A stretch of DNA of 32,447 nucleotides, taken from the IMG/VR virus record IMGVR_UViG_3300009285_000326, positions 1-32,447 of that record. One strand, given 5' to 3'. Each line of letters starts with the position of its first letter. Within the stretch, counting starts at the first letter, position 1. Positions 2,020 to 22,437 of this stretch are shown here, piece after piece. This DNA comes from a virus. A program made the position numbers and the translations under genes. The notes beneath the pieces were generated by a model, which did not search any database, was not told the DNA's origin, and saw nothing but the letters and a program-made list of their open reading frames with translations.

Positions 2020-2312
2020 TGTTTGCGCGAGCCGGAGGAGATGCCCGAAAGTATAATGTATCGCGGGGGCACATGCACTCACTGATGGAGGCCGACGCGG
2101 AGATGGATTTAATGGATATCATCGGACTATCCATGATATTCTTTGGCTCGCTGATTGCGGTGATGGATGGGCGCGCGATGGTCGGGCTGCTGTCGCCGTC
2201 CTTGCCGATAACGAAAATGACTGTGTGCGCCACGACGATTATTCTGGAGGGATTCGCCATTGGCATCGCGGCTCGTGCGTACACTCGATGCTCCGGCCAC
2301 TATACAACCTGA
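2016..2312 (+). CDS. Small membrane protein with two predicted helices
   Basis: 98 residues from the ATG at 2016, which overlaps the zinc-ribbon stop; an in-frame ATG at 2085 would give 75 residues. Two hydrophobic segments are visible, one around IIGLSMIFFGSLIAVM and one around VCATTIILEGFAIGIAA, joined by a short loop. The last gene of the rightward operon, it runs tail to tail into the fibre gene with a 13-nt overlap. It could be a holin-like, exclusion or signalling membrane protein. Sequence alone does not decide. Confidence 0.6.
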   Translation: MMFARAGGDARKYNVSRGHMHSLMEADAEMDLMDIIGLSMIFFGSLIAVMDGRAMVGLLSPSLPITKMTVCATTIILEGFAIGIAARAYTRCSGHYTT

Positions 2313-3223
2313 GTCTGGTAAATGTATATTGCGGCCTGGTACAGGATGGCAGCGTTCAAGTTGCTAGACCTAACCGTTATCTTGTAGGTATGTCCAGGGA
2401 CGAGCTGGTTTTCAGTCCCGACCGTGAGCGCGGACGATACGATACGCTGTGCGACGTCCTGCGTTGTAGTAGTGACCGTTGCGAGAAGTTCGTTCGAGTC
2501 CGTCACGTCGTAGAGCTTGAGCGTCGCCGTCCCCGCTCCGGCAAACATTCCGGCTGAGACGTGGAGCTTGGCGGTGAACGTGAAATTATTTTCGTCCGCC
2601 GCGGGGATGAGGTCCGACGGTATAACGCACTGCCCGCACAGGACTTCGCTGGAGCTGTCGCCGCCGAACCCCGAGCCGATGCCCGCGCCCCCAGTAGTGC
2701 AGTCTGCGGACTGGCTGACTGTAAAATCAATGTGCGCGTGCAATCGGACCTCTCCCACCGCGCGCGGATATCGTTGCCCTGCGCATCGCAAATCGAATAT
2801 CTCCGCGTCGGTGATGGACGTATCGCCGTGCTCGACGAACACGATGGCGAGCGGAATGTCGTTATCGTCCGTGACATCGGGCGGATTGGGTGTCGCTGCC
2901 GCCGTGCCTGCGACGGCTATGGGATTCCCTCCACTCTGGTCGTACACGATGAGGTCGTACCTGTCGAGGCTTGCGTGCGCCGCAGTAATTACCACGTTGA
3001 CCGTCGCGGCCTCCGTGTACGTTGTGCCGTTGATGATGCACGAGCCAGCCGCGACATCGACGGACATGTCTGCACCGGCGGCGCGCTGCGACACGAGCAG
3101 GTCCGTGTCGGTGATGCTGGTCATTACCGGGCCTGCGCCGCGCAGCGCCTTTGCCATAGCAAGGAACTGAGCGCCCCAGGATTGAATCCCCTCCGTGATT
3201 GCGTAGATGTGCGCGTTTGTCAT
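2300..3223 (-). CDS. Tail fibre / receptor-binding protein candidate, copy A
   Basis: 307 residues, last gene of the tail module. The N-terminus (about 1-45) has a helical start, MTNAHIYAITEGIQSWGAQF. Residues about 50-132 form a beta-rich shaft or adaptor that is nucleotide-identical to the neighbouring gene. The C-terminal ~150 residues are a distinct Ser/Thr-rich beta domain with no match to copy B by eye. Position after the baseplate genes, paralogy and a variable C-terminus support a fibre or receptor-binding role. The start lies close after copy B's stop (3226). Confidence 0.7.
   Translation of the reverse strand: MTNAHIYAITEGIQSWGAQFLAMAKALRGAGPVMTSITDTDLLVSQRAAGADMSVDVAAGSCIINGTTYTEAATVNVVITAAHASLDRYDLIVYDQSGGNPIAVAGTAAATPNPPDVTDDNDIPLAIVFVEHGDTSITDAEIFDLRCAGQRYPRAVGEVRLHAHIDFTVSQSADCTTGGAGIGSGFGGDSSSEVLCGQCVIPSDLIPAADENNFTFTAKLHVSAGMFAGAGTATLKLYDVTDSNELLATVTTTTQDVAQRIVSSALTVGTENQLVPGHTYKITVRSSNLNAAILYQAAIYIYQTQVV
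2827..3073. repeat. 247-bp block identical to 3723-3969
   Basis: Reading both blocks base by base I find no difference over 247 bp (offset 896), including silent positions. It encodes the central domain running from GADMSVDVAAGSC to AIVFVEH in both fibre genes. Flanking sequences diverge sharply on both sides. This indicates recent duplication or ongoing gene conversion. Confidence 0.93.
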
Positions 3224-3225
3224 TA

Positions 3226-4119
3226 TCAGGTCTCCGCGTAGAACTCGATGGCGGCTTCGTACACCCAGGAGATGTAGGCGGCGTCCGACGTCTTGACCCT
3301 GGCGCGGTATTCATGCGCGGTCACTATCTGATTGCTCGTGCCATACGTCAGGTCCGCGCTGACCTTTATCTCCGCCGTCGTCGAGGTGGACGTGACTGTC
3401 GTAATGCTCTCAGCGTCGGTGTTGTCGTACAGTTCAACGGTCGTCGTCCCGCTGGCGTTGTTGCTCCGCAGGGTTGCGACGAACTTGGCGACGATTGTAG
3501 CGCCCGCTATCGCCCCGGGGAACTCGTCGCTCGTTATCTTGGAGATACCGGCCACGACGTAGCTTGTGGTGGCGTTCGACGTTCCCGACCCTATATTGGC
3601 GTCGTCGTTCTGCTTGCAGATGGTGATTGGAATCCTGCCGACCAACGTTGACGAGCTGAGCCCCGTTGCGCGAGCTCCGCATCGCAAATCGAATATGTCG
3701 CTGTTGACGATGCTCGTGGCCGCGTGCTCGACGAACACGATGGCGAGCGGAATGTCGTTATCGTCCGTGACATCGGGCGGATTGGGTGTCGCTGCCGCCG
3801 TGCCTGCGACGGCTATGGGATTCCCTCCACTCTGGTCGTACACGATGAGGTCGTACCTGTCGAGGCTTGCGTGCGCCGCAGTAATTACCACGTTGACCGT
3901 CGCGGCCTCCGTGTACGTTGTGCCGTTGATGATGCACGAGCCAGCCGCGACATCGACGGACATGTCTGCGCCCGCGCCCTTCTCGGTTGCCTTGAACGCA
4001 GTCCCGGCGAGCGTGTTGAGTACAACGCCGTTTCCTCGGAGCGCCTTGGCTATGGATTGTATCATCGCTCCGAATACTGTTCCGCCCTCCGTGAACTCGG
4101 TTATTGAAAAGTCCGCCAT
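3226..4119 (-). CDS. Tail fibre / receptor-binding protein candidate, copy B
   Basis: 297 residues, paralogue of the downstream gene. N-terminus MADFSITEFTEGGTVFGAMI with the shared KALRG motif near residue 27, then the identical central domain, then an unrelated C-terminal beta domain of about 145 residues rich in Thr, Ser and Ala. It lies just after the 122-residue baseplate gene. Two fibres with a common core and different tips suggest either two receptor specificities or a heteromeric fibre. Confidence 0.7.
   Translation of the reverse strand: MADFSITEFTEGGTVFGAMIQSIAKALRGNGVVLNTLAGTAFKATEKGAGADMSVDVAAGSCIINGTTYTEAATVNVVITAAHASLDRYDLIVYDQSGGNPIAVAGTAAATPNPPDVTDDNDIPLAIVFVEHAATSIVNSDIFDLRCGARATGLSSSTLVGRIPITICKQNDDANIGSGTSNATTSYVVAGISKITSDEFPGAIAGATIVAKFVATLRSNNASGTTTVELYDNTDAESITTVTSTSTTAEIKVSADLTYGTSNQIVTAHEYRARVKTSDAAYISWVYEAAIEFYAET
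3723..3969. repeat. 247-bp block identical to 2827-3073
   Basis: Partner of the identical central-domain block in the neighbouring fibre gene. Confidence 0.93.
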
Positions 4120-6327: not shown

Positions 6328-6836
6328 TACTCGGTCCTCATCGAGCCCACAGCTATCACCAGGCCAAACTCGAACTTGTTCTCTCCCGCGATTCGATTGC
6401 AATCCAGCTTGACCACGGAGCCCCGGAGAATCGCGCCCGTCGCGTTGTCGCATATATAATCTGCCGTTCCGCTGGTCCCAGCCTCAAACATGACCGTCAC
6501 GGGGCTGTCCTCGTCGTCGGGGTCTTCCCACCAATTCTGACATGCGTACTCGAGGTCCAGGAACTTGGTGACCTCGTGCAGCCCAGTCTCCCCGACAAGC
6601 GAGCCCTTCAGCGTAATCATACGCTTGGCCTTGCCCTTGTCGAACAGCGTGGCGTCCACTGTGTTGAGCCTGGTTATCGGCTTCGGCTGGCGCTGGAGCG
6701 AGTACGATTCCACGTCCACCGACAGCACGATTTTAGTCAGCGAAGTCCTGGCGGCAGGCGTGGAGTCGTTGGTGCGCGCCACGTCGTTGGTCGTCACTAC
6801 CCAGTCCGTGCGCTTGATTATGCATTCACCCGCCAT
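6327..6836 (-). CDS. Distal tail protein (Dit-like) candidate
   Basis: 169 residues, between the tape measure and hub genes, where siphoviruses encode the distal tail ring protein. Predicted mostly beta (MAGECIIKRTDWVVTT..., KRMITLKGSLVGETG) with an acidic loop WWEDPDDEDSP. The start overlaps the tape-measure stop by 11 nt and the stop overlaps the hub ATG. Assignment rests on position, size and beta character rather than on a diagnostic motif. Confidence 0.6.
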   Translation of the reverse strand: MAGECIIKRTDWVVTTNDVARTNDSTPAARTSLTKIVLSVDVESYSLQRQPKPITRLNTVDATLFDKGKAKRMITLKGSLVGETGLHEVTKFLDLEYACQNWWEDPDDEDSPVTVMFEAGTSGTADYICDNATGAILRGSVVKLDCNRIAGENKFEFGLVIAVGSMRTE

Positions 6837-8169
6837 AGTAGCTGTGCCTCCCGGATTGCCTGCTTATCGCCCGTGATACTTTATCGGCTAGGTCGTCGAT
6901 GTCCACGTCGCTGCTGACGCGCTCGATGTTGATGGTCACCGACGTTCCCCCGCCGCCCATCGGACTGTCGCCCTGGAACGCCATGACATTATCGTTGGGC
7001 GAGATGGCTATCGGCCCTTCTCCAGCGCGCCATATAACATCGCCGAAGGACGGCATCTCAAGCCCGCCAAGCCAGTTTCCGATTCCCTGCCCCACGCCGC
7101 CAATTCCCTCTCCGATGCCGCTGATTGTGCCCCACGCGCTCAGGATTGCATCGAACACGGGCTTGATGATGTTCTTATAGACTGCATCTATTCCGTCGGC
7201 GAGAGTATCCCACGCCGTAGAGAGTGCGGACCATACGGGCCTGATGACGTTCTCGTATCCCCACTCGATTGCGGTCGAGAATGCGGCCCAGGTGGGCTTG
7301 ATTCCGGACTCGTATGTAGTGCTAAAGATGGAAGATAGATAGCTCCAGGCCGCAGATAGGGCGCTCCACGTCGGGCGGATGATGTTCTCGTATCCCCACT
7401 CGATTGTGTTAGATAGCGCGTTCCAGGCGGGCTCGATGACTGCCTCGTAGACTGCCTTGAAGGTAGAGCCCAGCACGTTCCAGGCGTCGCCGAGCGCCTT
7501 GAATATCGCGCCCGCGTCAAGTCCTAGATTCTCGAACGCATCGAGAAGCCACCCAAGGCCAATCACTAGCGCGCCCACGGCTGCCGCGATTGCGACGAGT
7601 ACCCCTAGCAACGGGCTTACAAACGCTGCGGCTAGAGCAAGCGCAAGGATTGTGATGGCCTGCAATATCTCGGGATGGCGTTGCAGCGTGGCTATGACCT
7701 CATTGAGAACAGGGAGGAGCAGCTCGAACGCCTGCGTCAGCGCCGTTCCAACCACCTCCATGACATCCCGAATCATCGGGGACAAATCCGCGAACGAGTC
7801 TGCAAGCGTCCACATGAACTCAAGCAGCGGGTCGATTATCGGAGATATGATGTCCACCAGCACGTCACCTATGTACCCGAGTATTTCGTTGAACTCCTCC
7901 ATGTACGCGCCGAACATCGCGCTATGGCGCAGGAATATCATGAAGAATGCCAGCGCGTTCCCCGCGATAAGCTGGAACATCTGGTTCGCGCCGCCGACAA
8001 CCTTGTTCACGCCGCCCATCATGCCCTGAATCTTTCCGAACGCGCCGTCGAAGCCCTTCTCGAGCTTGCCGAACGAACCGAGAACGCCTTCGAGCCCCGA
8101 GGACGATATGACTGCCTCCAGCCCCACGCCACCGCCCGCGCCCGCCGCCGCAACTGCCGGTAGTACCAT
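6826..8169 (-). CDS. Tape measure protein
   Basis: 447 residues. The N-terminus is Gly/Ala-rich and helical, a long hydrophobic segment lies near 168-207, and residues about 241-340 hold five degenerate repeats around Y-E-x-I-I-x-P-x-W-x-A-L-S. The C-terminus (GEGPIAISPNDNVMAF... SVTINIERV ... DKVSRAISRQSG) is the motif that usually closes tape measures. It is placed downstream of the tail chaperones, as expected, with zinc-ribbon genes between. At the usual rule of about 1.5 Angstrom per residue it would set a tail near 65 nm. Two repeats are also similar at nucleotide level (around 7245 and 7380, 135 bp apart). Confidence 0.85.
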   Translation of the reverse strand: MVLPAVAAAGAGGGVGLEAVISSSGLEGVLGSFGKLEKGFDGAFGKIQGMMGGVNKVVGGANQMFQLIAGNALAFFMIFLRHSAMFGAYMEEFNEILGYIGDVLVDIISPIIDPLLEFMWTLADSFADLSPMIRDVMEVVGTALTQAFELLLPVLNEVIATLQRHPEILQAITILALALAAAFVSPLLGVLVAIAAAVGALVIGLGWLLDAFENLGLDAGAIFKALGDAWNVLGSTFKAVYEAVIEPAWNALSNTIEWGYENIIRPTWSALSAAWSYLSSIFSTTYESGIKPTWAAFSTAIEWGYENVIRPVWSALSTAWDTLADGIDAVYKNIIKPVFDAILSAWGTISGIGEGIGGVGQGIGNWLGGLEMPSFGDVIWRAGEGPIAISPNDNVMAFQGDSPMGGGGTSVTINIERVSSDVDIDDLADKVSRAISRQSGRHSYYGG

Positions 8170-9191: not shown

Positions 9192-10355
9192 TCACCACGC
9201 CCACGTCGCGTCCTTGACTTCGACGGTCAGGTACTGCGCAGTCAGGTCAATGTCCACCGGCATCGGACCTTCCTCAGGTATGTTGTGCGGCGCGGACAGC
9301 ATCCGGCAGTTCTTGAGCGTGAACTGGATGTAGTCCGTTGCGCTGCGGGCGAGCTTGAGCACCACGTCGAACACCGCGCCCGGCGTTGCGATGTACGCCC
9401 AGTGCGTCGTCGCTATGGGGACGATGGTCATCTTGCCCGTCGCGTCGTAGCGGCCCGTGGTGAGGAACTTCGGCAGGTTGGCGGCGCTGGAGCCCTGGGC
9501 GTATGTGGCCTTCGTCGCTATCTTGTTGCTGACGCTCCACTTGGTGACCTGCGCAAGCGCGCTCCCGCCCCATGTGAGCGTTGCGGTGTCGTACAGGTAC
9601 GGCTCTGTGGTCGGGACGGTTATCGTGGATAGCGACGTGCCTGCGGCTTCCGTGGACATGCAGCCGAAGCCGTGCTTCGCCGTCAGCGGCCCGCCTTCCT
9701 CGCAGGACCATTCAGAGTCGCCCACGACGCAGCCGTTGTAGTACCGCACGAAGTTGTCGATATTGGCGATTCCAGCCTCCAGGGTGAACGTCGGCAGCAC
9801 TCCGGTGTTGTAGGTGAACGTGTGTGTGTACGGCGCTACGACCTCCGCGCACGTCGCGAGAGATGCGTGAGCCTTGCGCAGCTTGAAGTCCAGCGTCAGG
9901 GTGTTGGTTGCGACGTTGGTAATCTTCCGGCATTCCGCGTTCGTGCCCGTGTCTATCTGGATGTAGTCGTTGGTTTCGTATCCGGTTGCGCTCGTGAGGA
10001 TGACCGTCGTCGCTCCCACGACCGTCGCGCCGTTGAGCGTGGACGCGCCCGTCCCGCCCGCCGTGCCCTGCGTGGACACCGAGCCCAGCGCGTACACGAG
10101 CATCTGAGGGTTGTGGACCACACCGGGCAGGGAGCCGCCCGAGAACTCCGTGCGGCCCTTGCTGTGCCACAGCGGTATCGGCCCGTTGCCCCTGGCGTAC
10201 TCCTTCTTCCATCCGGTCTTGCCGTCCGGCAGCTCGACCGCGCCGAGCAGCATCCCAGGCCACGTCGCCGTGGTCGTCGCCTTCGTTCCCTTCGTCGATT
10301 CGTCGCCTATGCCGATCTGAGTCCGCTCGGCTAGGTACGGCTCTGTGTTCGTCAT
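9192..10355 (-). CDS. Major tail tube protein with inserted beta domain
   Basis: 387 residues preceded by GAGGAGGT 6 nt from the ATG. The N-terminus (AERTQIGIGDESTKGTKATT) and the C-terminal TAQYLTVEVKDATWAW fit tail tube proteins. Residues about 100-172 (GATTVILTSATGYETNDYIQ... NTLTLDFKLRKAHA) form a separable beta domain commonly found inserted in tail tubes, probably exposed on the tail surface. No sheath gene follows, supporting a non-contractile tail. The gene sits between the terminator fusion and the chaperones in canonical order. Confidence 0.85.
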   Translation of the reverse strand: MTNTEPYLAERTQIGIGDESTKGTKATTTATWPGMLLGAVELPDGKTGWKKEYARGNGPIPLWHSKGRTEFSGGSLPGVVHNPQMLVYALGSVSTQGTAGGTGASTLNGATVVGATTVILTSATGYETNDYIQIDTGTNAECRKITNVATNTLTLDFKLRKAHASLATCAEVVAPYTHTFTYNTGVLPTFTLEAGIANIDNFVRYYNGCVVGDSEWSCEEGGPLTAKHGFGCMSTEAAGTSLSTITVPTTEPYLYDTATLTWGGSALAQVTKWSVSNKIATKATYAQGSSAANLPKFLTTGRYDATGKMTIVPIATTHWAYIATPGAVFDVVLKLARSATDYIQFTLKNCRMLSAPHNIPEEGPMPVDIDLTAQYLTVEVKDATWAW

Positions 10356-10567
10356 TCGATTACCTCCTCGCTAAAGCGTTTGACCTCTCCGCGATTGATT
10401 AGTTCCTCCGCGAGCTTGCGGGGGAGCTTTACGGGCACTCCGGGCACGAACTCAGCGACCACGGGCTGGTTTAGCCTGAACCCCTTGTCGCTGACTACCG
10501 TAATGTCCTGGCTTTCAATTTCCTGCGCGCTCTGAGCTGTTGGTGTCTTTTTCGCCATGTCGTTCAC
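10352..10567 (-). CDS. Small hypothetical protein before tail tube gene
   Basis: 71 residues from a GTG at 10567 that overlaps the upstream stop (GTGA); an ATG at 10558 would shorten it by three residues. The N-terminus is Lys/Gln/Ser-rich and probably disordered. The C-terminal half (PGVPVKLPRKLAEELINRGEV) looks like a small fold seen near head-tail genes of many phages, but I do not assign a family. It overlaps the tail tube ATG by 4 nt. Confidence 0.6.
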   Translation of the reverse strand: MNDMAKKTPTAQSAQEIESQDITVVSDKGFRLNQPVVAEFVPGVPVKLPRKLAEELINRGEVKRFSEEVIE

Positions 10568-12381
10568 GTCCTTGTCGTGTTGAATAGTTTTCTGAGTTCA
10601 ACGTCCATGATGGCGTTGAAATAATCGGGATACTCGGACGGCTTGGTGATTTGATTGACCCATATCCTATCCCATCCTCCGGTCTGCACGTTGCGGAAGC
10701 CGTTCAGAACGCGCTCCGCTTCGTCCACGAGCGCCTTGCACCGCACGCGGGCGTCCGTGGCGTTCGCGGTCTTGATGTCGATTGTGACGAACGTGGACAC
10801 GTCGTAGCGCGTCATGGACTCTCCGCGCGGGAGTCGCACGTCCGGGCGCTCCGAATAATAGACCTTCAGGATGTCGCCGTCTCTAAGGTTGTACAGCCCC
10901 CTGTCGCCCGCGTCTATGATTGTCGGCTTCGTGACGTTGCTGGCGTTCCAGTTCGCGTCTAACAGGCCGACTATGGTCGTGACGGGGTCGCTGTCTTCCT
11001 CCGTGATTGTGAGCGTCAGGCTGGTATCGTTGTCGCCGCCGTCGGTGAAGTTCGCCTGTATCTTCAGGTTGTGCGCCCCCGTCGGGGCTTGCCATCCGTA
11101 GATTCGGCCTGTGTAGTGCGCGTTGTTGGTCGATGTCATCGTGACGTACTGATTGGTGGTTCCCAACCTGATTACCACACTCTCGTCAGCGGAGCCGTCC
11201 ATGCCCGCGATGTCGCATTCCACCAGGGAGCTGCCCGTGGTTCCGATGCTGCTGTCGTCGATTGTGGCGTTGGAGATTACGGGCGACGCGAGTGGAGTAG
11301 CGACCATCGTTATCGCAATCGGTACTGAGCTTGTGCCCCAGTCTGCGCCGTCTGTGAAGTCGTGCGTTGCCGTCTGGAATACATAGCCCGCCTTGCCGAA
11401 CGCAAGCGTGTAGCTCCCGTATGTGGTCGTGCTCGTTGGCGTGCCCCAGGTCATCGCTCCCGCTGTCGTTCTGATGTAGGTTTCGACCTTTTGTAAGCAC
11501 CATATCGCGTCGTTGTACGCCGTTGGAGATTCGGGGGTGCATAGGCCGTCTGCGCCCGTGATTCCTGACGCAAGGGGCATATCCACCCCGCCAGTAGCTT
11601 CCGTCGCGGAGTAGTACGTTCCTGAGAGTGCCGTGGAGCCGTCGGTGGTAGTTTTGACGAAGGCGCGACGGTAGAACTGGACGCACAACAAGGCTTGCGC
11701 AACGAAATTTATACTTCCAGCGCCGCCCCCCGCCAGCGTAATCCCACCAACAATTCGGACACTTGACGACTGAATTACATTCATCCAAAAGCCTGACGCC
11801 TGTGATGCCGTAATGGTACACGCAATTAGTGTCATATCGCCATATTGCTTGTAAATGCCATAAGAGGCGGTCAATGCGCACGATTCAAGAACCGTATTAG
11901 CGCCATTCGTATATAAAACATAATTGCCGGTAATTTTTGCTGTGCAGTTGTACCAGTACAAATTGCCCTGCGTGTATATTGCCCCAGTCGTAGCCGAATT
12001 GCCCGACGCATCCTGCCCCCAATCAATGTTAAATATATTATTTGGGCCCCATAAAGTCGTTGCTCCGCTTTTGTACCCCGTCGTGCCGCCAATCGCGCAA
12101 CGTATCGCGGACTGTTTGGAAAACACGCCCGTTTCGGTCATGCAATTCAGCGAGCCATAACAGGTGAACGTTTTATTTGCGACCTCTCCGTTGCCTAACG
12201 CGATTGCCCAGTTTGCCCCCGTGGAATCGTGAACCAGATTTAGCGCGACATCGGCATTGACCGTAAGGGAACCGATTCCCGTCAGCGTCTTTCGGTCTGC
12301 GAGAGAACTGCCGTTCGCCGCTCCAGCCGCGACGTTGGAAATCCACGTCGTTGTGCTGATTGTCGTGTCCACGGCTGCCAT
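10564..12381 (-). CDS. Chimeric beta-helix / Ig-like / tail-terminator protein
   Basis: 605 residues. Residues about 1-230 look like a right-handed parallel beta-helix (repeating VLYTNGANTVLESCALTAS-type rungs). About 235-345 resembles a carboxypeptidase-regulatory-like beta domain, about 350-460 an Ig-like domain (TITEEDSDP at its end). The last ~110 residues (RYDVSTFVTIDIKTANATDA... DYFNAIMDVELRKLF) have the pattern of a tail-terminator or tail-completion protein, in the right place before the tail tube. Base composition is mosaic: 22 of 60 bases are G/C at 11881-11940 against 39 of 60 at 10741-10800. The beta-helix half probably decorates the neck, like whiskers. Confidence 0.65.
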   Translation of the reverse strand: MAAVDTTISTTTWISNVAAGAANGSSLADRKTLTGIGSLTVNADVALNLVHDSTGANWAIALGNGEVANKTFTCYGSLNCMTETGVFSKQSAIRCAIGGTTGYKSGATTLWGPNNIFNIDWGQDASGNSATTGAIYTQGNLYWYNCTAKITGNYVLYTNGANTVLESCALTASYGIYKQYGDMTLIACTITASQASGFWMNVIQSSSVRIVGGITLAGGGAGSINFVAQALLCVQFYRRAFVKTTTDGSTALSGTYYSATEATGGVDMPLASGITGADGLCTPESPTAYNDAIWCLQKVETYIRTTAGAMTWGTPTSTTTYGSYTLAFGKAGYVFQTATHDFTDGADWGTSSVPIAITMVATPLASPVISNATIDDSSIGTTGSSLVECDIAGMDGSADESVVIRLGTTNQYVTMTSTNNAHYTGRIYGWQAPTGAHNLKIQANFTDGGDNDTSLTLTITEEDSDPVTTIVGLLDANWNASNVTKPTIIDAGDRGLYNLRDGDILKVYYSERPDVRLPRGESMTRYDVSTFVTIDIKTANATDARVRCKALVDEAERVLNGFRNVQTGGWDRIWVNQITKPSEYPDYFNAIMDVELRKLFNTTRT

Positions 12382-12611
12382 TATCTCAAGTCCTCCGGGT
12401 TAATCTGCTCGCGCCCTCCCGCTTCGATACTGAGCCTCAATTCTATGGCGTGGCGTTCCATCGCAATCTCGTCGCAATCTCCGACCTCTCCGAAGTACGG
12501 CGATCCAATCTCGCGCAGTTGATATCCATCGTCGTACTCGTAGATGCTCGTGCAGCGCGGGTTTCCGTCCGCGTCTGTTCCGTGGTCCACGACCTCGACG
12601 AGCTTGACCAT
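12381..12611 (-). CDS. Small head-tail region protein, unknown
   Basis: 76 residues from the ATG at 12611 (MVKLVEVVDHGTDADGN), chosen because it follows the preceding stop by two bases (TGACGATG). The frame is open further upstream but would overlap two other genes. It is acidic and contains two separated cysteines. Position between connector and terminator suggests a head-closure or stopper role, but no motif confirms it. The stop shares a base with the next gene's ATG. Confidence 0.6.
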   Translation of the reverse strand: MVKLVEVVDHGTDADGNPRCTSIYEYDDGYQLREIGSPYFGEVGDCDEIAMERHAIELRLSIEAGGREQINPEDLR

Positions 12612-12613
12612 CG

Positions 12614-12700
12614 TCACGCGCCCCCTGCGAACGCGCTCCACGCCGCCGGGACGTAGTCCGGCCACGGCTCGCGCTCCGTGCTGAAGACCGTGGTCGTCAT
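12614..12700 (-). CDS. 28-residue microprotein in head-tail operon
   Basis: A frame of 28 codons, MTTTVFSTEREPWPDYVPAA onward, starts in an ATGA overlap with the connector stop and ends 2 nt before the next ATG. Both junctions look like translational coupling, the main reason to call it. It has Trp/Pro-rich content and no recognised fold. It could simply be a coupling leader. Confidence 0.45.
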   Translation of the reverse strand: MTTTVFSTEREPWPDYVPAAWSAFAGGA

Positions 12701-13410
12701 ACTATCAGCGCCCTCCGAGGCATGACCGTCCACTTCATCTCGTCCATCCTGCGCTTGATGTCCTCGTCGAGCATCCTGAGCGTTCCGTCCACAGTGGGGC
12801 GCTCGATGCCCGGATGCCCGCCCGACGCTATGACTCGCGTCGTGTCCATGAGCAGCACGTCCTTCGCGGCCATCCGCGTGGCTAAATCCTCGATGTCGCG
12901 GGGAACCGTCGCGGATCCGAAGTAGTACGTCACCCGGATGCCGTTCTTGTGCCTGAACATCGGCCAGCCCTTCTTGAAATATATCCGTGATTCCGCGTAG
13001 TCGATGTAGTAGTCCGAGCCCATGCCGAGCGTCTTGGTGGCTACCCAGTCGACCCACGCGGAGCCGTTCCAGACTTCTATCTTCCAGGGGTACGTCACCG
13101 AGGACGCGAGCGCGGGTCCGAAGTTAAGCTGGACGTAAAGCGGGTATGTCCAGTACGGCGTAGTTTCCGCGTTCTGGATGGTGTGCAGTTCCTCTGTGAC
13201 CTTTGAGTTGCGCCAGGCCGTCTCGAAGAAGGCGTCGATGATTCCCTCCGCTCTGAGAATGAAGTCCGTGACCACGGTCGATGTGGGTGTCGCTCCCGAA
13301 GATGCGAAGACGGGGCGCTGCAAGAGCTGCGCAACCTTGTCTGTGGTCGTGTACGTCACCGTGGACGCTACCGGTACTGGTATCGGGCCGTTCGCCCTTC
13401 CTGTTGCCAT
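12697..13410 (-). CDS. Head-tail connector (adaptor) protein candidate
   Basis: 237 residues from the ATG at 13408-13410, preceded by AGGTGAAAAGA; the upstream GTG overlaps that ribosome-binding site. Helical parts (VAQLLQRP, DFILRAEGIIDAFFETAWR and a long C-terminal helix region with DEDIKRRMDEMKW) flank a beta-rich insertion (SAWVDWVATKTLGMGSDYYI, then AESRIYFKKGWPMF). This is the layout of HK97 gp6 / SPP1 gp15-type adaptors, which bind beneath the portal. It lies upstream of the terminator, as expected. Assignment is by pattern. Confidence 0.65.
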   Translation of the reverse strand: MATGRANGPIPVPVASTVTYTTTDKVAQLLQRPVFASSGATPTSTVVTDFILRAEGIIDAFFETAWRNSKVTEELHTIQNAETTPYWTYPLYVQLNFGPALASSVTYPWKIEVWNGSAWVDWVATKTLGMGSDYYIDYAESRIYFKKGWPMFRHKNGIRVTYYFGSATVPRDIEDLATRMAAKDVLLMDTTRVIASGGHPGIERPTVDGTLRMLDEDIKRRMDEMKWTVMPRRALIV

Positions 13411-13454
13411 TCTTTTCACCTACCTACATACATCAAGGGTTTTGGGAAACGTTT

Positions 13455-14079: not shown

Positions 14080-14499
14080 TCAATCCATCGGCCCCCTGCC
14101 GAAATACACTATGACCCTGCCCGCCGAACCTCTGCCCTCCACCCTCGATTGAGAGGGTGCGGACGTCAATGTCAATCGCCCGGCGACCGTGACGCCCGTG
14201 AACGTATCCGCCGTGCTTCCGACCTGCGTCGGATAGACGCTCTCTGTGTTCGTCGCGTGCCTGTTCTGAAGCAGATTCAGCGCAACGTCCACGCCGTCCT
14301 CGTCCGGGAGCGTCATGTCGTAGTTGGCCGTTGGAACGAAATCGCCGTCCGGGTCCGTGACTATCCTGGTTATCGAGCCGTAGTACGAGCGCTTTGACTG
14401 CTGCGAGAACGTGTGGCCTTCCACCGTGTCCTTCCACAGTATCACTAGCTTGCCCGTCTTGCCGTTTTGCACGTAGTTCCAGGATACCGTTTCAGCCAT
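14080..14499 (-). CDS. Small virion structural protein, paralogue 1
   Basis: 139 residues. It shares with the next gene upstream a Trp near the N-terminus, TRIVT, a DED-x-(V/I)-DVAL-x-LL motif, NRH, TESVYPTQVGST and VAG-x-LTL, so the two are clear paralogues with diverged sequence. It ends in a basic tail. Placement between capsid and connector genes suggests a capsid decoration or minor head protein; a tail-fibre-like trimer is an alternative. GAGGT lies upstream of the ATG. Confidence 0.65.
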   Translation of the reverse strand: MAETVSWNYVQNGKTGKLVILWKDTVEGHTFSQQSKRSYYGSITRIVTDPDGDFVPTANYDMTLPDEDGVDVALNLLQNRHATNTESVYPTQVGSTADTFTGVTVAGRLTLTSAPSQSRVEGRGSAGRVIVYFGRGPMD

Positions 14500-14506
14500 C
14501 TATCGA

Positions 14507-14896
14507 TTACCTCATGTAAATCGTGATCATGCCTTTCTTCGAGTTCCCCGCGTTCGAGATGTTGAGCGTCAGCGTTCCCGCTACCGTTATCCCGGTCCAC
14601 GTCGATGCCGTTGAGCCGACCTGCGTCGGATAGACCGATTCCGTCGTTGATGTGTGCCTGTTCGCGAGCAGCCCGAGCGCCACGTCTATCGAGTCCTCGT
14701 CTGTGATTGTGGCATCGTAATCCGCTGTCGGCGCGGTAGCGCCGGGGTTGGTGACGATGCGCGTGATGGTCCCGAATATGGGCCACGGCGATGTCTGCGC
14801 CACAGTCCCGCCCGTGCTGTCGCTCGTCCAGTCTATGGTCACCTTGCCGCTCCCGTTGTTGAATATCTTGTTCCAGTTCGCGCTGTCGTCCGCCAT
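14507..14896 (-). CDS. Small virion structural protein, paralogue 2
   Basis: 129 residues from the ATG at 14894-14896, chosen because GGAGGTAAAAAC precedes it; the open frame extends 12 codons upstream without such a site. Motifs TRIVTNPG, DEDSIDVALGLLANRHTSTT and TESVYPTQVGST match the downstream paralogue. Predicted to be beta-rich. Its role is probably structural. Having two paralogues may mean a heteromer or alternating decoration. Confidence 0.65.
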   Translation of the reverse strand: MADDSANWNKIFNNGSGKVTIDWTSDSTGGTVAQTSPWPIFGTITRIVTNPGATAPTADYDATITDEDSIDVALGLLANRHTSTTESVYPTQVGSTASTWTGITVAGTLTLNISNAGNSKKGMITIYMR

Positions 14897-14920
14897 GTTT
14901 TTACCTCCGAATTTTAAGGA

Positions 14921-14946
14921 GAGGGGAGGCACATTGGCCCCCCCTC
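14921..14946 (-). terminator. GC-rich hairpin, possible terminator or attenuator
   Basis: GAGGGGAGG (14921-14929) can pair with CCCCCCCTC (14938-14946) with one mismatch and an 8-nt loop, just after the stop at 14955. There is no long T run on the transcribed side, so it may attenuate or process the late transcript rather than end it. Confidence 0.35.
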
Positions 14947-15088: not shown

Positions 15089-16069
15089 TCACCCCGCTGC
15101 GGTGTTCGGGTCCACTTCCGTGGAACCAGCCTGCGTGTGGTTGCCGAGTATGCCCGTGGGCGAAGCCGCCGACTCTATCGGCGTCTTGCTGGACGGGACG
15201 GTCACGTAGTTGTCGGTTATCAGCGGAGTCGCCGTCGCGTTCCAGTCTATGCCGATTGGCGTTCCCGCGCAGCCCGCGAGGTTGATGTGGTTCCGCTCGA
15301 TGACCGTGCCGTAGGCGACGAAGTCCACATGGACCACCATGCCTATCGCGCCCGAGACATCCGAGTAGAACCTGTTGTGGTGGATGTACGAGTCAATGAG
15401 GTACTGGTCTGCGCCAGAGGTGCTGTATATTCCGTAGGTGTGGCAGCCGCCCGCGACGCCGAAGCTGTTGTACGCGATTTCCGAGCCCCTGACGTTCTGG
15501 ATGGTGATGGCCTTCGTTGATGCGTCGGCGTCGCTGTTGAACACGTTGCCGAGTATGCGGCAGTTGTCGCACGCCATCAGGGTCATCGCCGGAACGTCAG
15601 TTGTCATGTTGAACTGCACGTTCTCGATGGACGAGTTGGCCGCGCCCCAGTATATCAGGCCGTATGTGAACGGCCCAGTGCCGGTGTCGGTGATGTTCAC
15701 GCCGCTGTCGGAGCCCGGTATGCCCAGGCCGTGGATGTGTATGCCGTGCCCGTAGACGCGCAATGGCAGCGTCGGAGCGTATGTGCCCGGAGCGATGAAG
15801 ACGTGGTACTCGGCGTCGTCGTCGTAGTTGTCCCGCGCCATCTTGTTGCCTGTGGTGTTGCCCCAGCACTTCTCCAGCGTCTGGAACGCAGTCTCAGGGG
15901 ACAGGCCGTCGTTGGAGTCGCTGCCGTTCTCTTCGTCGACCCAGTATATCTTGCCCGCCTTGCCCTTCATCGTGCCGTTCAGTCCGCCGTTCGCCGTGAT
16001 GCTGTGCTTGAATATGAGAGGGTTGTTAGCCTCCGGCATCGACTCATGGGCCCATCTTGCATTTGGCAT
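15089..16069 (-). CDS. Parallel beta-helix (pectate-lyase-like) virion protein
   Basis: 326 residues from the ATG at 16069; a TTG at 16087 is an alternative start. Residues about 30-60 contain IYWVDEENGSDSNDGLSPET, the typical opening of pectate-lyase-superfamily beta-helices (a GSD-x-NDGL motif before the first rungs). The rest shows Asn-rich rungs (IENVQFNMTTD, CRILGNVFNSD, SEIAYNSFG, LIDSYIHHNRFYSD, VIERNHINL). No catalytic set is evident. Its place directly after the capsid gene suggests capsid decoration or a head fibre rather than a tail depolymerase. Confidence 0.7.
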   Translation of the reverse strand: MPNARWAHESMPEANNPLIFKHSITANGGLNGTMKGKAGKIYWVDEENGSDSNDGLSPETAFQTLEKCWGNTTGNKMARDNYDDDAEYHVFIAPGTYAPTLPLRVYGHGIHIHGLGIPGSDSGVNITDTGTGPFTYGLIYWGAANSSIENVQFNMTTDVPAMTLMACDNCRILGNVFNSDADASTKAITIQNVRGSEIAYNSFGVAGGCHTYGIYSTSGADQYLIDSYIHHNRFYSDVSGAIGMVVHVDFVAYGTVIERNHINLAGCAGTPIGIDWNATATPLITDNYVTVPSSKTPIESAASPTGILGNHTQAGSTEVDPNTAAG

Positions 16070-16093
16070 TTCAGTTACCCCCTGCAAGCTCCC

Positions 16094-17233
16094 TTACTGG
16101 AGGTCCCTGAGCTTTCCGAAAGCCCTCGGCTTGTCGCAGATGAGTTCGCCCGCGCCGTACCACACGCCCTTCGTGATGTGGCCGACGGTGAACATGTCGC
16201 TGTTGTCGTGGAACGCGAGCGGTATGGCGTTGGCGAGTTCGATGTGGTTGAGGTCCAGCAGGTATATCCTGCTGATGGTATCCTTCACGACGCAATCGCT
16301 GCGGATGATTGGCGCGCCGTCCCATGTGGTTATCTTCCATCCGCCCTTGCCGCCGGTCGCCGTCTTGATGCCGTCGCCGACGGTCATGGTGAATGTGTCC
16401 GAGCCGAACCGGAGCTTCGCGGCCTCCAGCTCGCTCCACGCAGTCCACGAGTCGAACCCGGTGAGGTACATCTTGTCGCCCTCGGCGTTCCAGTACATCT
16501 CCTGGCCTTCCCTGAGGTCGTTGATGAGGCTTTCCGAGAGCGTCCTGTCCACGCCCGAGGCGTGCAGCGAGTTGGCGTCGAGAGTCGTGTTTGCGGACCT
16601 GTCGATGCTGTACAAGTCCTCGTCCGCCGCGTCGTAGCTGAGCGCGGTGTTCTCGCCGCTCGACCCGCAGATGCGGTCTAGGGACTCGACGTTGTACGCT
16701 GCGAGGGTTCCCATATCGACGAGCAGATCTGTCTCGAAGGCGTGGAAGAAGTCCTCCGCAAAGCTCGCGTGCGAGCTGTTCTTGTCGAGCGCGTCGGCTA
16801 TGCGAGAGTAGCAATCCATCCTCTGCGAGAAGTCGTGTACCTTCTCCCATTCCTTGATGGTCGGCGCTATCTCAATCCACGTCTCCTCGGCCGCCGTCCC
16901 GAGAGTTCCGCCTTCCGCGACTCCGAGCCCGGACGATACTGCCGCCACAGTCTTGGCGCGCCAGCCCTGCTTGGTCCATGCCTTCTTCGGCAGGCAACCG
17001 TACAGGTTCTTGAGCGTCGAAACCTGCGATACGACCTCCCTGGTGTACGTCGCGTTGTACGCGCCCGTGTCGCCCGAGGTTATCGCAGCCTTCAGTATCT
17101 GGTCCATGCCTATCGGAGCCATCGCCTGGGCGCTGCCGTCCTCCGACGCTGGAACCATGCCGACCTGTCGGTCGTACCAGCTCATCAGGTTGGGCGTTGT
17201 CTCCCGCCATATCCTCAAGTCTTCGTTTATCAT
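16094..17233 (-). CDS. Major capsid protein, HK97 fold
   Basis: 379 residues, immediately downstream of the protease/scaffold gene. The N-terminal 40-50 residues are helical and followed by TLKNLYGCLPKKAWTKQGWR, an E-loop-like stretch, then IEIAPTIKEWEKVHDFSQRM and a spine-helix region (SFAEDFFHAFETDLLVDMGT). The C-terminal part alternates beta strands (DKMYLTGFDSWTAW, IYLLDLNHIELANAIPLAFH) as in P- and A-domains. Because the protease carries the scaffold in the same polypeptide, no long delta domain is needed. It forms the icosahedral shell. Confidence 0.85.
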   Translation of the reverse strand: MINEDLRIWRETTPNLMSWYDRQVGMVPASEDGSAQAMAPIGMDQILKAAITSGDTGAYNATYTREVVSQVSTLKNLYGCLPKKAWTKQGWRAKTVAAVSSGLGVAEGGTLGTAAEETWIEIAPTIKEWEKVHDFSQRMDCYSRIADALDKNSSHASFAEDFFHAFETDLLVDMGTLAAYNVESLDRICGSSGENTALSYDAADEDLYSIDRSANTTLDANSLHASGVDRTLSESLINDLREGQEMYWNAEGDKMYLTGFDSWTAWSELEAAKLRFGSDTFTMTVGDGIKTATGGKGGWKITTWDGAPIIRSDCVVKDTISRIYLLDLNHIELANAIPLAFHDNSDMFTVGHITKGVWYGAGELICDKPRAFGKLRDLQ

Positions 17234-17234
17234 C

Positions 17235-18722
17235 CTATTTCCCTCCTTTTGCTCTGAGTTCCGCCTGAACCTTCGTCAGGCGTTCCTCGACTGTCATCGT
17301 CTCCAGCGCCTTCATTACGGGCGTCATCAGGAGCGACGGCTGGCCGTCCGAGTTCGGGGTGTTGTCCACCGCGACGCCCTTGGACTTCTGGACCGATGCC
17401 TTGACCTTCGCGTCCATGTCCGAGAGCTGCTTCTTCATCTCCTCGTTGGCCTTCCTGAGGGTTTCGACCTCAGCGTTCTTCTGTTCCTCCACGGGCTCGG
17501 GGTCTTCCTTCTTGACGCCCTTGGAAACGGCGGCCATGAGTTCCGCGACCTGCTTCTCCAGCGCAGCCACGCGGCCCTCCATGTCCCCTCCGTTCGGCGG
17601 CGCGGCCCCTGGCGGGGGCGCGCCTGCCGGCTCCTCCTTTTTAATTTCGTTAGGCATTGCCTTTTCCTCCTGCTTCTTGTCAATCGCCACACCCTCTGGA
17701 GGGGAGCTGGCCGGTAGACTGTGATTCTCTAAAACTGCGATAGCGGCAACGTCGGCGGGTATCGATGCGGTAAGCGCCCTGAGCGCATCGCCGATGGATT
17801 TACCAACGGCGATTCTTTGTTCAGTCGAGAGTAATCCGCGCTTGACCAGTTCGTCGCAATACACGGTGTATGCCTGGTGGATATGCCCGGTGAGAACTGC
17901 GCCGAGTGTCCCCGCATCTCCCGATTTCTCTACGGCGTTTGTACTCTCAATCTCCGCACCCTGGCCGACGTGCGCGCACATCTTCTCTGCCGTGTCCTTG
18001 TCGTGCCCCTTGCAGCCCATCATGTGAGCGATGCAACCTTCGCGCCCTGCGACGAACAACCCCTTGCCGTCGATGTGGCCGCACTTCTCGACCGCCGAGT
18101 GCGCGGCGTCGAACTGCTTGGCGAACGTCGCGCCCATGAGCGGGTCGAAGTCCTTGGCGATGCTGACGCTTGTAACGTCCGCCATCGGGTTCGCGCCGGA
18201 GTCCCCGACCCAGCCGACGCCCCACATGGACATGTCAGATAACTCGCGCAACCCACCAGGGAGCTTGCGCTGTGCGTTCGGAGAACCCTTGATGCTCGAC
18301 ATTCCCCGCGTGCCATACCGCTTGATGTGATTCCAGGCTTCGTCGTGCGCTGGATTGTTGCTGTGAACGCTGTCGTAAATCCCGACTCGAATCTTTATCT
18401 TGCCGTCCTCGATTCTCCAGGCGATGGCCTTGCCGATGGGGAAGCCGGAGTGCTGCCATTCGTAGTACCCGTTCTCCATGTACCACGGCATGGCCTTGGC
18501 GAGCGCGGTCTGCGGAATGGTATCCCCGTGCGCGTCCCCGGCGTCGGATGAGATGAACGTCTCCACGATCCTGTCGTTCGACCATGACCGCTCGTCGAGC
18601 CACGGCGAGTTCTTGATTCGCCCGTCCACGATGGACGCGAGTATCGCGCCGTAGACCTCGTTCGTCGGCGGATGCTGCGGGTCGTATGCGAAGCCGTCGC
18701 CCTTGAGTTCGAGGTTCGGCAT
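17235..18722 (-). CDS. Capsid maturation protease fused to scaffold (XkdF-like)
   Basis: 495 residues. The N-terminal ~190 residues resemble the XkdF-type prohead serine protease: a strand leading to ETFISSDAGDAHGDTIP, a conserved-looking YYEWQHSGFPIG with candidate catalytic His91, and candidate serines in RGMSSIKG (142-143). Residues 214-251 hold a Cys/His-rich helical module (C214, H216, C230, H233, C237, H240, C249, H251). From about 340 the protein is Pro/Ala-rich and then a Lys/Glu coiled coil (about 385-450), typical of scaffolding. It would shape and then process the procapsid. Confidence 0.75.
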   Translation of the reverse strand: MPNLELKGDGFAYDPQHPPTNEVYGAILASIVDGRIKNSPWLDERSWSNDRIVETFISSDAGDAHGDTIPQTALAKAMPWYMENGYYEWQHSGFPIGKAIAWRIEDGKIKIRVGIYDSVHSNNPAHDEAWNHIKRYGTRGMSSIKGSPNAQRKLPGGLRELSDMSMWGVGWVGDSGANPMADVTSVSIAKDFDPLMGATFAKQFDAAHSAVEKCGHIDGKGLFVAGREGCIAHMMGCKGHDKDTAEKMCAHVGQGAEIESTNAVEKSGDAGTLGAVLTGHIHQAYTVYCDELVKRGLLSTEQRIAVGKSIGDALRALTASIPADVAAIAVLENHSLPASSPPEGVAIDKKQEEKAMPNEIKKEEPAGAPPPGAAPPNGGDMEGRVAALEKQVAELMAAVSKGVKKEDPEPVEEQKNAEVETLRKANEEMKKQLSDMDAKVKASVQKSKGVAVDNTPNSDGQPSLLMTPVMKALETMTVEERLTKVQAELRAKGGK

Positions 18723-19261: not shown

Positions 19262-19484
19262 TTTCCAGACCCCCCGGATACTGTTTCAGCAAAGCCTCGA
19301 TGTCCCGCGCTATCGGATGATTGATTTTCTGCAATGAAGGCAACCATGTTTTGTCGATTATTCCGCCATTGAAAAGATTGCGCTGAATAAGTTCCGTGCT
19401 TTGCGCAAGTTTAATAAATTCCGCATACGCCGAACTCGTAGCGAGTAAGAAAATTTCATTGTCTGCCTTCAAATCAATCGTCAT
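19254..19484 (-). CDS. Candidate immunity protein for the MuF nuclease
   Basis: 76 residues from the ATG at 19482-19484, which overlaps the toxin stop as ATGA. It starts MTIDLKADNEIFLLATSSAY and is predicted mostly helical, ending HPIARDIEALLKQYPGGLEI. No family is recognised. The reasons for calling immunity are position directly after a polymorphic C-terminal nuclease, tight coupling, small size and the same AT-rich composition (22 of 60 G/C at 19321-19380 against 36 of 60 at 20401-20460 in the MuF region). It could equally be an accessory or structural protein. Confidence 0.55.
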   Translation of the reverse strand: MTIDLKADNEIFLLATSSAYAEFIKLAQSTELIQRNLFNGGIIDKTWLPSLQKINHPIARDIEALLKQYPGGLEIV

Positions 19485-22333
19485 GTATTCGGCCCCCAAT
19501 TTCCTGATTTGTCCCACGACCCGATTTTCTTACTGTTCTCGCGGTTAACAATATATTCTTTATCTTCCACGAATTTTCCTGGTTCGATTTCATGAATATA
19601 CACGTCGATGCTGCTCTCGGTAATTACGTTCATGTAAATCGTGTTCCATGCCTTTCCGTACTCTGTGGCGAAAGACTGCTTTTGTCGAATCTGATTAGGC
19701 CACATAACGATTTGTCCGACCTGTGTTGTTTTGACTTCCACCAATTCACCGTTGAATAAATCAAATGGCGCGTTGCGGCAATCGTTGGCGATGTGATATT
19801 TTTTCATTAGTTCTGGACTAAAATCGCCCTGACGCGCCCGATGTACCGGAGCAATGCCGGGTATCTGTGTTACAAGTTCTTCGCCCTTATCGCCGACAAG
19901 CGTATTGAATTTTGGGTTGCCAATTTTTTGACGATTGGAAAAAAGCGTGTCTGCTTCGGACTCTCCTTCGGCTGGTTTACCGGGCCCAGTCTCGTAGTAA
20001 TGTCCGCCCTGCGGTCCTTGCTGGACTCTCGCGCCTTCGGGGGCTTTCTCGCCAGGCTTCAGGTAAATGCGCGCCTTCTGGAAACCCTTGCCGATTTCGC
20101 TGAACTGCGTGCGCCTGGATACGACATCCTTACAGCGAGGGTGCGGTAGGAATCCGTTGGTGATGCGCCTCAACTCTTCGAGCGGATACGGGTTGCCCTT
20201 GTATGGGCCATACACCTTCTTTCCGACTTTTGCGGTTCCTCCTTTAGCGATGGCGTTGCATATAGGGCACGGACTCCCTTCAACCTTATTCTCGGAGATG
20301 GTCCAGTCGTACTCCGCATCCTTGTAGAACTCGGGGTACTTCTCCCAATGTCGGGCGCGCCCTTCGTTCGTGATGCGCGTTGTCTCGCTCCGCACGATGC
20401 GCTCGATGTCGCTGCGCTTCGTCTGCGCAACCTCTACCAGCCTGTCAGTGACCGCTTTCACGTCCATGCCGCCGGGCTCGCCGTACATGCGCTTCAGCTC
20501 GTCGAAGAGCGCGCTGACGGTGCCCTTGCTCTGCGTGCGGATGTTGGTGAGCATCCCTTCTCCCGATGTCAGGAGCGCGTCCAGGGCGTTCCGGTCGGGC
20601 TGCTCGAACGCGGCCTTCACCATGTCGCTGGACTCGGACTCGAACGATAGTTGGTAGGTTTCAAGCGCGTAGTCGGTCGTGGCCTTGACCATCCAGTCCT
20701 CGAACTCGGACGCCAGCATAACGGGGTCCGCGCCCTTGTTGACCTTTCGGGCGACGGTTTCCAGGGCTGCGGCCAGGCGACCCATGAACGCCTTCTCCAG
20801 CGTTGCGAGTCCGCTGACGAGTTCCGGGTTCCAGCGCGGCGTCAGCGCCTTCTCGACGCTCGCCTGCGTTGGCGAGAGTGGGTATGGCTGAGGAGCCTGA
20901 GCATACGCTCCCGGAGTTGCACCCGCGTTCGGCGCAGCCATACCCGTGATGTTGATGTCGAAGTCCATGTCCATCGTCGCTTCGACGCCCGCGTTCTTCA
21001 ACTGCGCGAACGTCCCGGCCTGCGTCGCTCGGAACTGCGCGGCCTTCTGCTCGTCCGCAGGGCGCGGGCTGCCGAGCCGATACTCCCACGCGGTGATCTC
21101 TGGGAATAGCGGCAGAATCTGAGTGTTGATGAACTCCTCAATCTGGCCTTGAATCTCGCGCACGGTGTCGAACGAGCCGTCCATGTTCTCCGTCTCGTCG
21201 CCGAGCTTTCCCGGCGTCGGCCTTCCGAGGAACTGCATGGACACCCCGAACCGCAGCGCGACCTCTTCCGCCAAGTCCTTGCGGAGCTGGAGCATTGAAA
21301 GGTCCGTGTTATCGCCCATGAGGTCCACGACCGCCGGGGGCGCTTGAACGCCGAGCCACGCATCGCGGCGAATCTCGGGATGCGCGGCCTTGAACGTCAG
21401 CAGTTCCTCCATCATTATGTTGATGGAGCCCTGAGTCATGCCGGGGAACGAGATGAGCTTGCCGGGGCGCTTGTTCATCGAGTACGCGGACCACAGGTAT
21501 GCCGATGTCCAGCCGATGGTCTGCGCCTCCCGGAACACGCTCTGGAGCGACGGCTCGCCGTACATGGACGTTCCGAGCGCCTTGGTGTTGCCGTGGAGTA
21601 TCTCGCCCTTCGCCCACGCCATCACGACCTTGTCGGTGTCGTTAATCTGGACGTAGACCGTCTCAACGACTTGCGCGCCGCAATCGCAGCGTTCTCCCGC
21701 GCCCTTGAAGACGAGCCGCTGTTTCGATAGGCAGGCCGGGCAATGGTATCGCTCGCCGGGAACAACCTGGCGTATGTATTCCGCGCTCAGCACGTCGAAG
21801 CCCACAACGTCCTCGCCGTCGTGGAGCACTTCCCAGTACCACTCGTCGATGTACATCAGGTAGTATGCCGTGTCGCGCACGAGGTCTTTCCAGGTCTTGC
21901 GCACGTTGCCAGTCTTCGCGTCGGTGTTCGGGCGTCGGAGGATTGCATTGAGGCGCTTGTATTCCAGCGGGCTCGGCTTCGACAGCAAACGGCTTCCGCA
22001 CTGGCAGGCGTCATCCTCCGGGGCTTCGTCGTGCTCCGTGTCGCACGCCTGGCACTTGACCGCGTAGATGGGCTCGAAGCCGCCCGGCGCTTTCGTGACC
22101 TGGCTGACGATTTTATCCGCGACTGCGCCGATAATCCACACGCTGCGCGGCAGGCGCATTAGTATGCGAGGGTCGATGATTCGCGTGTAAAGCCCATTGC
22201 GGACCTCCATGTTCGAGTACAGCCCTTGCGACGATTGCCCGCGAGTGCTGGAGCCCTTGCGGAACTCGTCGCGAGGGATGCCGTCAACTGACGCTAACGA
22301 CTTGGAGAACCATGTGCGCGGGTCTAAACTCAT
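19481..22333 (-). CDS. Portal-MuF fusion with C-terminal PD-(D/E)XK nuclease-like domain
   Basis: 950 residues from the ATG at 22331-22333, just downstream of a TATA box. Residues about 1-480 are a portal (KRPGKLISFPGMTQ, EEVALRFGVSMQFLG, PEITAWEYRLGSPRP) with two zinc-knuckle insertions (C94, C97, C110, C112; C198, C201, C216, C218). About 530-750 is a MuF head-morphogenesis domain ending CPIC...GFLPHPRCKD. A linker at 754-793 (KPGEKAPEGARVQQGPQGG) leads to a domain with E818/E819, D858, E866 and K868 arranged as in PD-(D/E)XK nucleases (FDLFNGELVEVKTT). The portal acts as the DNA channel. The tail could be a delivered DNase. Confidence 0.8.
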   Translation of the reverse strand: MSLDPRTWFSKSLASVDGIPRDEFRKGSSTRGQSSQGLYSNMEVRNGLYTRIIDPRILMRLPRSVWIIGAVADKIVSQVTKAPGGFEPIYAVKCQACDTEHDEAPEDDACQCGSRLLSKPSPLEYKRLNAILRRPNTDAKTGNVRKTWKDLVRDTAYYLMYIDEWYWEVLHDGEDVVGFDVLSAEYIRQVVPGERYHCPACLSKQRLVFKGAGERCDCGAQVVETVYVQINDTDKVVMAWAKGEILHGNTKALGTSMYGEPSLQSVFREAQTIGWTSAYLWSAYSMNKRPGKLISFPGMTQGSINIMMEELLTFKAAHPEIRRDAWLGVQAPPAVVDLMGDNTDLSMLQLRKDLAEEVALRFGVSMQFLGRPTPGKLGDETENMDGSFDTVREIQGQIEEFINTQILPLFPEITAWEYRLGSPRPADEQKAAQFRATQAGTFAQLKNAGVEATMDMDFDINITGMAAPNAGATPGAYAQAPQPYPLSPTQASVEKALTPRWNPELVSGLATLEKAFMGRLAAALETVARKVNKGADPVMLASEFEDWMVKATTDYALETYQLSFESESSDMVKAAFEQPDRNALDALLTSGEGMLTNIRTQSKGTVSALFDELKRMYGEPGGMDVKAVTDRLVEVAQTKRSDIERIVRSETTRITNEGRARHWEKYPEFYKDAEYDWTISENKVEGSPCPICNAIAKGGTAKVGKKVYGPYKGNPYPLEELRRITNGFLPHPRCKDVVSRRTQFSEIGKGFQKARIYLKPGEKAPEGARVQQGPQGGHYYETGPGKPAEGESEADTLFSNRQKIGNPKFNTLVGDKGEELVTQIPGIAPVHRARQGDFSPELMKKYHIANDCRNAPFDLFNGELVEVKTTQVGQIVMWPNQIRQKQSFATEYGKAWNTIYMNVITESSIDVYIHEIEPGKFVEDKEYIVNRENSKKIGSWDKSGNWGPNT

Positions 22334-22356
22334 AGCGTAAAGAAATTGGCGCGTTA

Positions 22357-22365
22357 GTATATATG
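22357..22365 (-). promoter_or_regulatory. TATA box of the virion operon
   Basis: CATATATAC on the minus strand lies about 29 nt upstream of the portal ATG, so the transcript would be leaderless or nearly so. The 104-nt gap 22334-22437 is the longest gap in the leftward virion block and otherwise holds no gene. It probably separates late structural transcription from the upstream genes. Confidence 0.55.
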
Positions 22366-22437
22366 CAAATGCGATTACATAGAGGGCGCAGTCGGAGCAT
22401 TGCACCATGCAACGACTTGATTATTGGTGGTTTTTGT

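Follow-up and report, generated by a model that had tools for sequence, protein, structure and literature searches.

The window analysed here, the whole of a single IMG/VR virus record (IMGVR_UViG_3300009285_000326) of 32,447 bases, encodes the structural module of a tailed virus on its minus strand. Its main genes are as follows.

24112-25392, minus strand: terminase
19481-22408, minus strand: portal protein, 975 aa
18726-19190, minus strand: neck or MuF-type protein
17235-18722, minus strand: protease/scaffold
16094-17233, minus strand: major capsid protein
12697-13419, minus strand: head-tail adaptor (phrog_17057; homologues in haloviruses and in 55 viral loci)
9192-10355, minus strand: tail tube protein (phrog_290, E = 5e-22; Phage_tube_2; matches to haloviral tail tubes)
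6826-8169, minus strand: tape measure protein
down to 2300, minus strand: tail-tip genes

The capsid, adaptor and tube proteins are nearest to those of haloarchaeal tailed viruses, and the capsid is also close to that of a Methanofastidiosa virus. Moreover, the terminase is nearest to that of psiM2 of Methanobacterium, and the MCM helicase has matches in archaeal viruses only. The record is an archaeal siphovirus. Directly after the major capsid gene, a minus-strand gene (15089-16087) encodes a 332-aa protein that reads as a right-handed beta-helix; it has no relative in the fetched loci and is possibly a head decoration. The tail tube protein carries an insert of ~75 residues (about 96-172) that its aligned haloviral counterparts lack. 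Two minus-strand pairs are also of note: 2300-3223 and 3226-4119 encode tandem paralogous fibre- or baseplate-like proteins that are 53% identical, while the adjacent small proteins at 14080-14499 and 14507-14932 have the motif SVYPTQVGSTA in common and look like tandem paralogues.

Between the adaptor and tube genes lies an ORF with an ATG start that overlaps the stop of the preceding ORF, and a Shine-Dalgarno-like GGAGG occurs 10 nt upstream, at 12392-12396. Its boundaries are exactly those given by a first-pass annotation of this DNA. A second, short product from an internal start near the domain border was considered and rejected, as no start codon occurs between residues 416 and 514, and the gene thus yields one long product. 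When the whole protein was searched against IMG/VR, phage records and PDB sequences, no credible match and no full-length homologue came up. The gene and its parts can be laid out as follows.

10564-12381, minus strand: whole gene, tail terminator with an N-terminal decoration, 605 aa
12172-12381, minus strand: N-terminal stretch, residues 1-70 (pLDDT about 30)
11671-12171, minus strand: probable right-handed beta-helix, residues 71-237
11224-11670, minus strand: linker or domain, residues 238-386 (pLDDT <50)
10999-11223, minus strand: five-strand stretch of beta-sandwich type, residues 387-461
10567-10998, minus strand: terminator domain, residues 462-605

Terminators are compact, conserved parts of tailed viruses, and residues ~462-605 are a true tail terminator of the SPP1 gp17, T5 p142, lambda gpU and HFTV1 type. 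The domain has the fold, is homologous to a family with a solved terminator, lies between adaptor and tube, and is the sole terminator of the record. Direct database searches with the whole protein did not recognise it, and an initial profile built from 11 haloviral terminators supported a sequence link only weakly. Synteny provided a further line of evidence: HVTV-1 gp127, HCTV-2 gp37 and HHTV-2 gp44 are short genes between adaptor and tube. An adaptor-based genome scan led to two contigs of archaea, of which one belongs to a Methanolobus MAG. In both, the post-adaptor gene (136 and 145 aa) is similar to the target across its residues ~464-600, and the Methanolobus copy shares 27% identity with it in 108 aligned columns (BLASTP E = 2e-5 as a single comparison). 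Scanning again with the adaptor yielded 55 viral loci, nearly all with a terminator-like gene. A family profile of 46 homologues, with the window left out, matches a single window ORF, the target, at E = 8.1e-18 over residues ~464-599, a value that is somewhat favourable because the window domain was part of the profile used to collect the homologues; the next-best window ORF scored E = 0.61. Evidence apart from this E-value comes from the BLASTP match, from synteny and from the fold, and hhalign gave the domain a probability of 98 against the family. The order adaptor, terminator, tube is kept in relatives.

Structure prediction agrees with this assignment. AlphaFold2 modelled residues 462-605 with a mean pLDDT of about 80, helped by an alignment that included haloviral terminators. 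In the PDB fold comparison, the first 49 matches are confined to residues ~453-605; almost every one is a named terminator or neck of a phage, or a cap from a contractile system. Against named terminators and caps, Z ranges from 14.8 to 8.4 over residues ~460-605 (HFTV1, 14.8; T5 p142, 14.4; P74-26, 13.4; lambda gpU, 11.4; T4 gp15, 9.2), and the BFVD fold matches of the domain are likewise terminators. The family profile has one significant match among PDB sequences, the SPP1 gp17-like tail completion protein of HFTV1 (9fkb_Pa, E = 4.1e-5). The first-pass annotation had read the C-terminus as a terminator, and profile, fold and gene order bear it out; residues ~495-605, where it placed the domain, do fold in this way, but the border lies near residue 462 and the front comprises ~460 rather than ~490 residues. 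With the 46-homologue profile, no second terminator gene was found among the ORFs of the record, which may itself be incomplete. A YpM match at residues 555-590, inside the terminator domain, fell below the Pfam cut-off and was taken as chance.

The front was predicted with low confidence, and the three domains previously proposed for it fared differently. Residues 71-237 match the pectate lyase 4yza across 147 residues (Z = 8.1), in a model whose confidence is low to moderate (pLDDT 52-70 in residues 131-220). In addition, residues 130-215 show a 20-residue periodicity (p = 0.012) that fades over wider ranges. The proposed beta-helix is thus moderately supported, and residues ~71-237 probably adopt this fold, although our confidence is modest. 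Residues 387-461, which had been called Ig-like, form five strands in both models (pLDDT about 50-65), consistent with a beta-sandwich type, but the stretch has neither a Pfam match nor a convincing fold match, and its Ig-like identity is unproven. The separate model of residues 226-470 was too poor either to assign a fold or to discard one, its best match being to unrelated folds at a Z of 4.5. The supposed regulatory-like domain found no support, as residues 238-386 have no significant Pfam match. Neither a binding motif nor an enzyme signature was detected.

The front also sets this protein apart from its relatives. When residues 1-465 were compared as three pieces, no relative was detectable in about 170 loci, and none occurred in public phage records. 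Bare terminators, which the first-pass annotation had suggested looking for, are the rule: in 35 non-identical syntenic loci with both adaptor and terminator, the latter is 134-191 aa long and the front is present in 0/35. Among 480 archaeal genomes of two phyla, only three carry the terminator family, as open frames of 145-149 aa that lack a front. The best 50 BFVD matches likewise include no terminator with a front, the longest being 307 aa. Scans with capsid, terminase and tube gave few useful neighbours, and a scan with the terminator alignment gave no match. No second virus with the fusion was found among the relatives and databases compared, and a literature search of partial coverage revealed no report of a terminator fused to a carbohydrate-binding module.

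Solved terminators form a ring of six copies, with beta-sheets lining the channel and helices outside (PMC12886913, PMC11784142). By analogy, residues 462-605 would form a ring, presumably a hexamer, that closes off the completed tail tube and serves as the docking point for the head. In the predicted model, the first element of this domain is a helix (466-476), and since terminator helices lie outside the ring, an N-terminal fusion should exit at the periphery. The front would then leave the ring outwards, as six copies of the probable beta-helix on a beta-sandwich stalk. The six appendages at the head-tail junction envisaged by the first-pass annotation do follow, by analogy, from the hexameric state of known terminators, whereas the front that would form them is predicted at low confidence. 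We consider it likely that the protein is an archaeal siphovirus terminator with an N-terminal decoration of ~460 residues, whose hexamer bears six outward appendages as an accessory neck collar. Such a collar would be part of the terminator rather than a whisker protein of its own. The virus retains separate tail-tip fibre genes, and since tail-tip proteins and a pair of paralogous fibre-like proteins are also encoded in the record, its role would be an accessory one. Its most likely use would be accessory adhesion to the archaeal cell surface, through the S-layer or glycans; the binding of host glycans in particular, also suggested earlier, is a conjecture. It is tempting to go further and view the ring as an adhesion device, with six beta-helix neck arms that bind or cleave surface glycans of the archaeal host, but this bolder reading is rather doubtful. 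If true, this would be a siphovirus whose collar is part of its terminator, next to relatives in which the adaptor carries the extension.

Decoration of the neck is recurrent in this virus group, mostly on the adaptor, where N-terminal domains have been gained repeatedly. Of 37 adaptor frames, for example, 7 measure about 295-326 aa, versus about 210-260 aa in the others; judged by eye, their about 85-110 extra N-terminal residues resemble small beta domains of FN3, Ig or CarboxypepD_reg type. These extended adaptors are listed below by locus.

L098:9692-10657: extended adaptor
L120:3506-4483: extended adaptor
L122:6156-7067: extended adaptor
L136:9665-10567: extended adaptor
L139:9686-10627: extended adaptor
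L160:2604-3500: extended adaptor
L167:6562-7446: extended adaptor, the only one of the seven with a CarboxypepD_reg Pfam match, a weak one

In a further adaptor of 454 aa (L104:8933-10297), an insertion of about 130 residues looks like a beta-sandwich. At L147:10594-11847 and L161:4317-5525, two related ORFs of about 400 aa occupy the place between adaptor and terminator that holds a shorter neck protein in other loci.

The extended adaptors also lend some credence to a structural rather than adhesive front, one that braces the head-tail joint or touches neighbouring neck or tail-tube parts, in the manner of the Ig-like domain on the R4C adaptor or of the proteins that decorate stopper and terminator in phage 812. 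Particles of phage 812 that lose their neck decoration have deformed necks (PMC12886913), and the R4C domain contacts the capsid (PMC10276861). We regard bracing as possible but on the whole unlikely, as 460 residues with a probable beta-helix far exceed the bracing domains described, and collar beta-helices have been tied to glycan binding in 936 phages (PMC6669499), if by analogy only. Host-surface binding is our first guess, and neck bracing the second.

How the front was acquired can be judged in part from composition. The first-pass annotation had inferred a graft from a shift in G+C along the gene, and its figures are right in kind: G+C is 37% at 11881-11940 and 65% in the 120-base stretch 10700-10819, which spans 10741-10800. 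As an argument they are weak, because 12 of the record's 60-base windows have <=40% G+C and the last part of the target gene also falls to 48%. GC3 is more telling, at 0.57 over residues 1-235 (including the helix), then 0.70, and then 0.80 in both sandwich and terminator. Helix codon usage has a mean log probability of -1.35, against -0.86 to -1.10 for the other genes tested, except for a methyltransferase at -1.40. Residues about 785-930 of the portal (19481-22408) form an atypical stretch inside a structural gene as well, with a GC3 of about 0.46. Since this part of the portal and the methyltransferase are about equally atypical, base composition was downgraded as proof of a graft. Nevertheless, atypical codon usage together with absence from the 35 syntenic relatives favours acquisition of the helix part, and a graft is plausible; the sandwich part looks ameliorated or native.

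The same compositional shift, and the want of a second example of the fusion, might suggest that the record joins two sources, either as an assembly chimera or because a stop codon that separated two genes was broken. A chimera would require two joins inside a conserved gene order in which adaptor, tube and terminator domain all belong to one virus group, there is no composition break at the domain border between sandwich and terminator, and relatives have no separate gene resembling the front at this place; such an artefact is thus highly improbable. Lastly, terminator and tail-tube folds are related (PMC11784142), but it is scarcely credible that the C-terminal domain is some other ring protein of related fold, given a fold list filled by terminators and caps, a fitting gene order and the profile match to the HFTV1 tail completion protein.

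Adhesion of archaeal viruses is poorly known, and a collar of the kind favoured here would offer them a way to contact the host from the neck. An N-terminal appendage of ~460 residues on a siphovirus terminator would also show that the ring tolerates a large graft. Moreover, the analysis places an unannotated family of archaeal-virus proteins (HVTV-1 gp127 and its kin) as tail terminators. What is new is the fusion of a decoration to a siphovirus terminator, and its size; the literature search, partial in coverage, returned no such fusion.

Among the closest known systems is the terminator of HFTV1 (9fkb / 9h4p), with which the target shares its fold (Z 14.8 over 138 residues, 14% identity) and a profile match (E 4e-5). 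HFTV1 is also an archaeal siphovirus with its terminator between head-tail connector and tube (PMC12494034), but that protein has 157 residues and no front. HVTV-1 gp127, HCTV-2 gp37, HHTV-2 gp44 and their homologues in archaeal viral contigs (phrog_19972 in part) belong to the same family and occupy the same gene position, but are undecorated in all 35 loci compared. Terminator domains with additional domains are known from contractile systems, including phage 812 gp99, PVC16 and T4 gp15 (PMC11784142, PMC12886913). The additions described there serve the sheath, by locking it, and in the fold comparison the core of these large terminators starts within about the first 10 residues, with no long N-terminal front. 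The R4C adaptor similarly has an extra beta domain, peripheral and Ig-like, fused to a neck ring protein (PMC10276861), but this is a single small domain on a dodecamer. Finally, the 936 lactococcal phages carry beta-helix domains, as is probable here, in a collar where head and tail join (PMC6669499). In groups D and E, these reside on a protein distinct from the terminator, NPS, which is 500-900 residues long and has a BppU-like N-terminal ring domain and a C-terminal beta-helix, whereas the ring domain of the protein described here is a C-terminal terminator on the same chain as its decoration.
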